A DNA stretch of 64,000 bases from Methanosalsum natronophilum (GTDB taxonomy: Archaea > Halobacteriota > Methanosarcinia > Methanosarcinales > Methanosarcinaceae): positions 1-64,000 of the forward strand of contig NZ_JANUCS010000012.1 of the NCBI RefSeq assembly GCF_024808815.1. Direction: 5' to 3'. The notes beneath the pieces are model-generated. The model was not told the origin of the DNA and did no database searches. It saw only the letters and a list, made by a program, of their open reading frames with translations. A program made the translations under genes and the position numbers. Shown here piece by piece: positions 40,852 to 52,618 of this stretch (the stretch's first letter is position 1; each line of letters opens with the position of its first letter).

Positions 40852-41754
40852 TTATTTTGTAATGATTTCACAACCATCATCTGTAACTAGTACTGTATGT
40901 TCTGCTTGGGATACTAGTCCAGAATCAATTTCTTTTAGTACTGGATACGACCTAACAATATGACTTTTAGTCAATTGGTTAAGAGCAAAGTCAAGCTTTT
41001 CCATATTTAACCATCTTTTTGCAAAAGGAAGTGTTTTATACTGTTCAATTTCAGCTATGATTTTTCTTGCAGCTGGGAGTCTCACGGGCTTTTTCTCAAT
41101 AAAACTATATATTTCAGACCAAGACCCATCGGCCACTTTTCCTGCACCATTAGTTGCAAATGGTTCAATTGCAATTACATCGCCTGAATGCAGGATAGAT
41201 CCTTGGCTAACTCTACGGTTTGGAATACTTGGAGGTGCATGAGTAATATATGGCGCTAAACCATGTCCTGTTAAGTTACCAATTGGCTTTAAGTTATAAG
41301 CGGTAATTGCATCTTCAATAGAAGCAGCAACTTCTGCAGTACTAACACCATCTTTGATTGAATCAATAGCAGCATAAAGTCCATCCTATGAAGCCTTTAC
41401 AATGTCTTGATTTGAAGTAAAATCAACAGTTAATGCAGAATCTGCAATATATCCGTCTACATGCACACCCATATCAAGCTTGACCATATCTTGTTCAAAT
41501 ACCGAACTATCATTTTTGCTCGGCGTCGCATGAGCAGCTTCTTCGTTTCTTGAGATGTTACAAGGAAATGCTGGTAACCCTCCTAATTCAACTGTTCTCT
41601 TTTCCACAAACTCTGCAACATCTAATAAACTTGCACCAATTTTGATACGTTTGACGGCTTCTGACCTGACTTGTGAAAGGATATTTCCAGCTTGGATGTA
41701 TTTTTGAAAAACATCTTCTATATCCTGAAGCTTTTCTTCCATATACTCCCTCAT
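40852..41754 (-). CDS. map: Type II methionine aminopeptidase with in-frame UAG (probable pyrrolysine codon)
   Basis: Archaeal type II MetAP, 300 residues, removing initiator Met. A TAG at 41386-41388 is codon 123; the frame continues perfectly on both sides (VKAS-UAG-DGLYAAI) with no frameshift. Metal ligands occur before and after it: DMGVHVDGYIADSA, NLTGHGLAPYITHAPP, IAIEPFATNG and the Glu in QAEHTVLV. The position is usually a charged residue; AAG to TAG is a single change and pyrrolysine is a lysine derivative. Translation stopping at UAG would lose three of five metal ligands. If UAG were always a stop this would be a pseudogene; the absence of other decay argues against that. Start may be the Met at codon 5, after GAGGGAG. 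Confidence 0.9.
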
Positions 41755-41791: not shown

Positions 41792-42967
41792 TTAAACTAC
41801 AAATTTCTTTTCAAATCCAGTTAAATTTTCGTATCCATCTGATGTGACTAAGATAATATCTTCAACACGTATTCCACCTATACTTGGATAATATAAACCT
41901 GGCTCTATAGTAATAACATTTCCTTCTTCCAGTATCTCATCATTTTCTGAAACTTTTGGATCTTCATGAACTTCAATACCAACACCATGGCCAGTAGCGT
42001 GAATAAATCCATACTTAGAATTGCTTAAATGAGTATCATAACCCTTTTCTTCAAAGATAGCACAAACTCGCTTATGGATTTCTCCACAAGACATCCCAGG
42101 CTTAATCATTTTAATAGCCTCTTCCTGTGACTCAAGGACAGCATTATACATGTCCAATAAGTTTTTTGGAGCATCTCCTTTAATCACCGTTCGGCACATA
42201 TCTGAGTAATAAAGAGTATTTTTGCTCTGAGGAAATATATCAATCACAATTGGCTCGCCTGCACTCAAATTACCCTTTCCTCGATGATGTGGTATAGCTG
42301 CATCTTTTCCACAAGAAACTATTGTACCTTTTCCTTGACACCCAAGGTCAATTAACTTATGCTCTATACTGCTTTTAACATATTCAGAAGTTAATGGTTT
42401 GTTTTTATAGTATAAAAGTCCGTCTAAAACCTCAGAATCTTCTATTATGGTTACTGCACACTTCATAGCCTGTTCACATGCACTTTGAACATTTTTTATA
42501 TTGTTTATTTCATTTTCAGACTTTATTGTCCTCATTTTTCTAAATGGGCTTTTTATGGGTAAAACTGTAAATCCCATTTCTTTTAAGTATTGAGCTATAT
42601 ATAAAGGAAATTTTTTTGGAACAGACACTCTTCTTACTTTTAAGTCCCTTAAAAGCTCCCCTAAACACTCACAATATGCATCATAAGAATCACTTGCATA
42701 TTTAACCTTCTCTTGATATTTATAATCTGAAAGTGTCCTAATATCGTGGACTCTAGATTCAATTGCAGCTCTTTCTCTTTCCATATCAGGAACGAATAAA
42801 ATTTCTATATTTTCTTTTGATTGAATATATGTAAAAGAATCGGCTGCAAAAAATTGAGTTGCATAAAATAAATCTGAATTATTAATATCCCCAATAATAA
42901 TTAATGCATCTGTATTATTTTGAGTCAAATAATCACTAATGTCTCTATCACTAATGTTTTCTGTCAT
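41792..42967 (-). CDS. M24-family Xaa-Pro peptidase
   Basis: 391 residues. The N-terminal creatinase-like domain (residues 1-140) is followed by the pita-bread catalytic domain with the metal ligands in PIVIDIFPQSKNTLYYSDMCRTV, HATGHGVGIEVHEDP, VITIEPGLYYP and GGIRVEDIILVT. It probably trims peptides with proline at position 2. It lies upstream of the methionine aminopeptidase on the same strand with a 37-base gap, so two M24 metallopeptidases of different subfamilies are next to each other. Confidence 0.92.
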   Translation of the reverse strand: MTENISDRDISDYLTQNNTDALIIIGDINNSDLFYATQFFAADSFTYIQSKENIEILFVPDMERERAAIESRVHDIRTLSDYKYQEKVKYASDSYDAYCECLGELLRDLKVRRVSVPKKFPLYIAQYLKEMGFTVLPIKSPFRKMRTIKSENEINNIKNVQSACEQAMKCAVTIIEDSEVLDGLLYYKNKPLTSEYVKSSIEHKLIDLGCQGKGTIVSCGKDAAIPHHRGKGNLSAGEPIVIDIFPQSKNTLYYSDMCRTVIKGDAPKNLLDMYNAVLESQEEAIKMIKPGMSCGEIHKRVCAIFEEKGYDTHLSNSKYGFIHATGHGVGIEVHEDPKVSENDEILEEGNVITIEPGLYYPSIGGIRVEDIILVTSDGYENLTGFEKKFVV

Positions 42968-45975: not shown

Positions 45976-45985
45976 GGTGTGCCGT

Positions 45986-46729
45986 ATGCAGTTTGATATA
46001 ATACCAGCAGTTGATATGAAGAATGGAAAGTGTGTTCAACTAGTACAAGGAGTTCCTGGAAGCGAAATGATATCACTTGATAATCCATTAGAAGTTGCAT
46101 CTGAATGGATAGATAAAGGGGCTAGTACTCTTCATTTAATTGATTTAGATGGAGCGTTTGGAGGCTCTAGAAAAAATGCACCACTTATAAAGGAAATTAT
46201 TAATCAAAGTAAACAAATGCAAGTTAGTATCCAGGTAGGTGGTGGTGTTAGGTCTTTAAATGACGCATCAAATATTCTTGATCTGGGTGCAGACAGGGTA
46301 ATTCTAAGTACAGCAGCAATTAATAATCCTGAGATAGTTAATGAAATTGCTAAGGAATACGGGAGTGACAGTGTAATGGTCGCACTTGATGCAAAAAATG
46401 GAAAAGTTTCTATTGAAGGCTGGACCAAACAATCAGCCTATACTCCTGTAGACCTTGGAATGAAGTTTCAAGAACTTGGTGCAGGTAGCCTTCTTTTTAC
46501 AAACATTGATAGCGAAGGTCTGTTGAAAGGTATTGATATTTCTCCAACTAGAGATCTCATCCAATCTGTAAGCATACCTGTGATTGCTTCTGGAGGAGTA
46601 TCATGTATAAATGATATTATGTTACTAAGAGATATAGGCGCTTCAGGTGTAGTTGTAGGTAGTGCCCTTTATAAGCATAAAATTAACTACCAAGATGCCT
46701 TAATAGCTCTAAATAAAAGGATAAAATAG
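45986..46729 (+). CDS. hisA: ProFAR isomerase HisA
   Basis: 247-residue TIM barrel for the Amadori rearrangement in histidine synthesis: DIIPAVDMKNGKCVQLVQG with the catalytic Asp, VQIGGGVRS-type loop (QVGGGVRSLNDA), VALDAKNGKVSIEGW and VIASGGVSCINDI. The ATG with AAGGTG upstream is preferred to a GTG nine bases earlier. The gene ends in TAG, one of only two such stops in the window. If that UAG were read as pyrrolysine the protein would gain 19 residues, ending inside hisB. Confidence 0.95.
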   Translation: MQFDIIPAVDMKNGKCVQLVQGVPGSEMISLDNPLEVASEWIDKGASTLHLIDLDGAFGGSRKNAPLIKEIINQSKQMQVSIQVGGGVRSLNDASNILDLGADRVILSTAAINNPEIVNEIAKEYGSDSVMVALDAKNGKVSIEGWTKQSAYTPVDLGMKFQELGAGSLLFTNIDSEGLLKGIDISPTRDLIQSVSIPVIASGGVSCINDIMLLRDIGASGVVVGSALYKHKINYQDALIALNKRIK

Positions 46730-52192: not shown

Positions 52193-52618
52193 ATGTCTTT
52201 AAAAAACAAAAACAATTTTGATGAAGTGCCAAGCAAAAAATACTCTGGCCTGGTGCACAATGAGAATGCAGTTTCAGATGTAGTGGGTACACTTTTGATG
52301 GTAACTATTACAGTAATTATGGCATCCTTGGTGACAGTAAGTATATTTTCAATAGACCCTCCTTCAGATGTACCACAAATAAATTATAAGATTATAGAAA
52401 ATACACATAATTCTGTTGATATTATACATATGGGGGGCGAGCCTGTAGAGGTATCTGAACTACTGTTTGTTGATTCTGCTGGTGAAAAGATTGACATTGA
52501 TGAAAACTCAGAGATTTCTGATGATGACATTTGGCGAATTGGAACAAAGATCACTTTGGATCCAGGTGATAAAAGAATAAACATTATACACAAACCAACA
52601 CAACAACTAATTAGGTAG
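52193..52618 (+). CDS. Archaeal type IV pilin-like protein
   Basis: 141 residues. A polar leader of about 26 residues is followed by a single helix of the archaeal pilin N-terminal domain (NENAVSDVVGTLLMVTITVI and onward), then a beta-rich acidic ectodomain. Pre-pilin peptidase would cut near the Asn-Glu-Asn-Ala-Val junction. AAGGAC precedes the ATG. The gene ends in TAG, followed two codons later by TAA, so read-through would add only three residues. Confidence 0.8.
   Translation: MSLKNKNNFDEVPSKKYSGLVHNENAVSDVVGTLLMVTITVIMASLVTVSIFSIDPPSDVPQINYKIIENTHNSVDIIHMGGEPVEVSELLFVDSAGEKIDIDENSEISDDDIWRIGTKITLDPGDKRINIIHKPTQQLIR

Follow-up and report, generated by a model that had tools for sequence, protein, structure and literature searches.

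Extension of the genetic code by pyrrolysine is known mainly from methylamine digestion, and methionine aminopeptidase (MetAP), a housekeeping enzyme, removes the initial amino acid of newly made proteins. The window analyzed here, a stretch of 64,000 nucleotides from the archaeon Methanosalsum natronophilum, contains a MetAP-coding gene (map) with an in-frame TAG, which raises the question of whether this UAG is read as pyrrolysine, terminates translation, or is merely an error in the sequence. We consider it very probable that the organism has a single MetAP, that its UAG is read as pyrrolysine by amber suppression, and that the codon is a recent neutral capture at a tolerant helix position.

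The map gene lies on the minus strand (40852-41754). Its frame, running from 41754 to 40852, comprises 300 codons, is open except for a single TAG at 41386-41388 (mRNA context UCA-UAG-GAU), and ends in TAA; no frameshift was seen in it. The read-through product matched TIGR00501, the NCBIfam model of type II methionyl aminopeptidase, with 362 bits over residues 15-300 (cut-off, 222.65), scored above the cut-off for PF00557 (Pfam M24), and aligned with the MetAP chains of Pyrococcus furiosus over 17-298 (2e-68). The initial annotation, which had described a 300-codon type II MetAP frame with one TAG and no frameshift, was borne out by these matches. Its numbering of the TAG as codon 123 is correct for the longest frame; however, the homologues have their start at the position of codon 5, an ATG at 41740-41742 that is preceded by a GGAG-like ribosome-binding site, so that the protein probably has 296 residues, with the TAG as codon 119. 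The residues D94, D105, H164, E197, and E285 aligned with D82, D93, H153, E187, and E280 of the P. furiosus enzyme, which we take to be its metal-ligand residues, and all five ligand regions are intact on either side of the TAG, as had been noted before. By its sequence, the map product is a full-length type II MetAP when read through, and it is predicted to be active. A gene for an M24-family peptidase (Xaa-Pro aminopeptidase-like; 41792-42967, minus strand) immediately precedes map and has the same orientation.

The TAG is placed between the ligands Asp105 and His164. It separates an N-terminal part of 118 residues from the likely start (41389-41742, minus strand), which carries D94 and D105, from a C-terminal part of 177 residues (40855-41385, minus strand), which carries H164, E197, and E285 and is lost if UAG terminates. 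The chance of 177 random stop-free codons at 34% GC is about 1.5e-6, with homology not yet counted. A MetAP that terminated at the UAG, without three of its five metal ligands, should be dead. One rival reading holds that UAG nevertheless mainly terminates here, with rare readthrough by another amino acid, a two-chain enzyme produced by internal restart, or a tolerated pseudogene; we regard this as highly improbable. As to restart, the first in-frame ATG occurs 127 codons past the TAG and the first ATG, GTG, or TTG 83 codons past it (GTG at 41136). All of these candidate starts follow H164 and E197, so that a restart product would lack both ligands. As to a pseudogene, the genome contains no other MetAP: a genome-wide search for a second map gene found none, TIGR00501 matching only the window gene in an assembly that is 98.85% complete with 0.27% contamination. 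MetAP is probably essential. Constraint is also kept after the TAG, given that the nonsynonymous difference between map and its congeners is 0.13-0.14 downstream of the TAG and 0.17-0.18 upstream, synonymous sites being saturated. Because this difference is no higher after the TAG than before it, the map sequence shows no sign of decay, although a very recent loss would leave no trace.

The same genome encodes an apparatus for decoding UAG. On contig 9 (L002 7896-12288), pylS, pylB, pylC, and pylD come in this order after the tRNA-Pyl gene (pylT, anticodon CTA), all present and uninterrupted. The N-terminal domain of PylS scored above its cut-off, and pylB, pylC, and pylD were named by order and sequence rather than by a separate family scan. 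With these genes intact, near-cognate reading of the map UAG by another amino acid would be superfluous. In-frame TAG codons also occur in mttB (C1:106162), mtbB (C19:30586), and mtmB (C19:20466), frames that were named from sequence and general knowledge and that we take to be the known pyrrolysine enzymes. No PYLIS-like RNA stem-loop was found beyond chance after the map UAG (z = -0.84; 38/200 shuffles fold at least as well), and PYLIS is dispensable for UAG decoding (PMC2933860, PMC9499178). An ordinary UAG introduced in M. acetivorans gave only 20-30% readthrough (PMC2933860); if this value applied to map, the amount of enzyme would be lower.

The codon is private to this organism within its family. 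A MetAP match was obtained in 106 of the 112 family genomes searched, this genome included, and TAG inside MetAP was absent from all 105 others. When 53 MetAP loci were read in detail (four further rows with one TAA were left out), the window gene was the only one with an internal stop (1/53). Rows with TAG in G106, G108, G001, G002, G044, G057, G050, and G040 were rejected because the stop, at query residue 3 in each, comes before the start codon of the relative. Among 52 homologues, the residue at the TAG site is Glu in 42, Arg in 6, Lys in 2, and Ser in 2, and P. furiosus MetAP has Lys112 there. The site is thus variable and polar among relatives, is not a metal ligand, and falls within a predicted helix of residues 116-132 (block pLDDT 92; model mean 74; four-sequence alignment). 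Judging from this model and the alignment, pyrrolysine at this variable helix position should be tolerated.

The initial annotation had derived the UAG from a Lys codon, AAG, and had proposed aligning MetAP from sister species to look for TAG or Lys at this site. Neither congener has TAG; one has a Lys codon, AAA (G072), and the other has GAG (G073). TAG is reached in one step from GAG or AAG, whereas AAA requires two. Given these codons, the prevalence of Glu among the homologues, and the single step from GAG, the specific derivation from AAG was not upheld; the sequences suggest that an origin from GAG is at least as good.

A codon found in this genome alone could also be an assembly or base-call error, in which case the true codon would be sense (GAG or AAG) and MetAP ordinary. 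The genome is a 2.03-Mb draft in 46 contigs, the window being on contig 12, and one assembly of the species was analyzed. With about 55,500 codons only one step away from TAG, 0.2 false internal TAGs would be expected at 1e-5 errors per base and about 1.9 at 1e-4. A high error rate should, however, also break housekeeping genes by TAA or TGA. We scanned the genome, rebuilt from stretches (2,013,202 of 2,030,718 bases), for TAG codons flanked by coding sequence on either side. Coding potential was scored from codon usage, with long frames as the training set, and mttB, mtbB, and mtmB served as positive controls. The same scan for TAA and TGA returned mainly antisense shadows or adjacent genes whose start lies near the stop, and no housekeeping gene comparable to map that was interrupted by either codon stood out in it. 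Furthermore, the organism decodes TAG, and a real mutation is thus tolerated. For these reasons, and in view of the recurrence of TAG in a second conserved gene described below, an error at this codon appears quite improbable.

The strongest TAG-spanning cases in the scan were mttB, mtbB, map, and mtmB, followed by a gene for an FMN-reductase-like flavoprotein (PF03358; G000:C4:1572-2300, L181). The in-frame TAG of the latter, at C4:2154, corresponds to Glu in both congeners, and beyond this codon the similarity to the congeners is maintained (72-73% identity over 236 residues). By sequence comparison, this is a probable second neutral pyrrolysine gene outside the methyltransferases, and with such a TAG, matched by Glu in the congeners, a private base error at the map codon becomes less likely. 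Two further frames are weak candidates for pyrrolysine genes. One is an FkbM-type methyltransferase frame (G000:C30:4061-5218, L209) with TAG at C30:4622, upstream of the Pfam domain, which stays a weak candidate because no close relative spanning the TAG site was found. The other is a 141-codon frame (G000:C6:98637-99071) without a clear family, with one TAG at C6:98754 and coding-like sequence on both sides. The remaining cases were rejected: pheA and its neighbor (C19:2641-2665), a pair of RNA-binding and TIM-barrel genes (C7:46527/46542), and the frames at C1:144811 and C15:38037 look like neighboring genes or upstream leaders, and many further TAG-spanning frames are antisense shadows. 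Separately, the scan for TAA and TGA showed one exception to the pattern given above, a Cas1-like frame (G000:C11:59394) that has coding sequence before and after a TAA and lacks an ATG nearby; it may be a disrupted cas1.

The use of TAG at gene ends bears on how often UAG terminates in this organism. Only two further genes in the window end in TAG, in agreement with the initial annotation, namely a hisA-like gene (45977-46729) and a pilin-like gene (52193-52618); the other genes on this contig comprise 43 that end in TAA and 17 in TGA. Simple gene calling over 1.87 Mb gave 95 TAG-ended genes among 1607 predicted (5.9% vs 26% expected from base composition), a count that includes truncated halves of TAG-broken genes and is otherwise about 90. 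Under-use of TAG as a terminator has been reported for archaea with constitutive pyl expression (PMC4153887). Nine TAG-ended genes had an orthologue in 400 kb of a sister genome, and for eight of them the two ends are no more than 10 residues apart; for the remaining one, MetAP, the orthologue extends 178 residues further. The genome encodes one full-length copy of aRF1, which has the NIKS and YxCxxxF motifs. This canonical release factor and the genes that still end in TAG, in agreement with their orthologues in every testable case, are what favors termination at the map UAG.

Conversely, the rarity of TAG as a gene end might indicate that it is fully reassigned to pyrrolysine genome-wide and never a stop. 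A 2025 report is said to describe archaea in which all TAG codons are read as pyrrolysine, which would provide a precedent and might include MetAP among its cases; pyrrolysine in the MetAP of this organism would hold with or without such a reassignment. We nevertheless consider it unlikely. The next TAA or TGA in frame lies a median of 9 codons away after TAG, TAA, and TGA alike, with no sign of selected back-up stops; the orthologues agree with the TAG gene ends, although the eight testable genes are a small number; and aRF1 retains its UAG-recognizing motifs. Given the orthologue-matched TAG ends, the canonical aRF1, and the equal next-stop distances, UAG in this organism is best seen as an ambiguous codon, used for both termination and pyrrolysine.

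Taken together, the intact pyl genes, the lack of a second map gene, and the constraint seen both before and after the TAG make decoding of the map UAG as pyrrolysine the best explanation. The corresponding proposal of the initial annotation is sustained to that extent, with incorporation as its predicted part; we infer readthrough, pyrrolysine at this residue, enzyme activity, and neutrality alike. PylS would charge the pylT tRNA(CUA) with pyrrolysine, and Pyl-tRNA(Pyl) would compete with the single aRF1 at the map UAG. The full-length MetAP would carry pyrrolysine at a helix site that accepts Glu, Arg, Lys, and Ser. A single recent point mutation, in either GAG or AAG, is the most likely source of the UAG, which may persist because the pyrrolysine system is made anyway for methylamine use.

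The methyltransferases MtmB, MtbB, and MttB, all three in this genome, resemble MetAP in having a UAG that is read, or in MetAP presumably read, by the same pylTS system. However, the methyltransferase pyrrolysine is conserved and catalytic, whereas the MetAP site is private, tolerant, and not a metal ligand. A closer parallel is the tRNA-His guanylyltransferase Thg1 of Methanosarcina acetivorans, for which the original paper on pyrrolysine is reportedly that of Heinemann et al. in 2009. Like map, the Thg1 gene is a housekeeping-type gene that has acquired an in-frame amber codon, private to its species, in a methanogen that decodes UAG as pyrrolysine. Pyrrolysine has been physically detected in Thg1 and is dispensable for its activity (PMC2933860), whereas it is predicted in MetAP, which is single-copy and expected to be essential. 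In Ca. Methanomethylophilus alvus, 16 non-methyltransferase pyrrolysine proteins are predicted and 1.6% of stops are TAG (PMC4153887), as compared with about 2-3 and 5.9% in this genome, which belongs to another order. The digeranylgeranylglyceryl phosphate synthase, MtxX, and Cas1 of that archaeon are, like MetAP, conserved enzymes with a private in-frame TAG; MetAP is absent from Table 7 of its pyrrolysine proteins (PMC4153887). The main text of a pyrrolysine screen including M. zhilinae mentions no aminopeptidase (PMC3639795), and we found no report of pyrrolysine in MetAP in the open-access literature, as the initial annotation had surmised. Capture of UAG by non-methyltransferase genes, including those for conserved archaeal enzymes, is already published (PMC2933860, PMC4153887); MetAP would be a new protein in this group.

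The case also carries a warning for annotation: standard gene callers would either split map or label it a pseudogene, and the gene would be listed as absent. If the reading is confirmed, map would be a natural single-copy gene, expected to be essential, that could not be completed without the pyrrolysine extension of the code. For Ca. M. alvus, it has been proposed that the Pyl cassette could become essential through a UAG in a conserved enzyme (PMC4153887). The dependence of initiator-Met removal on the pyrrolysine system, put forward in the initial annotation, is a reasonable supposition. We suggest only tentatively that N-terminal Met removal, and with it maturation of the whole proteome, may be tied here to pyrrolysine supply and competition with aRF1, making the pyrrolysine system essential on every substrate. 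If such dependence is true, the level of MetAP might respond to methylamine or lysine status. M. acetivorans reportedly does not need the pyrrolysine system on substrates other than methylamines (Mahapatra et al., 2006). With a UAG captured in map, the code extension would be locked in, an intermediate stage on the way from an optional 22nd amino acid to an obligate one.
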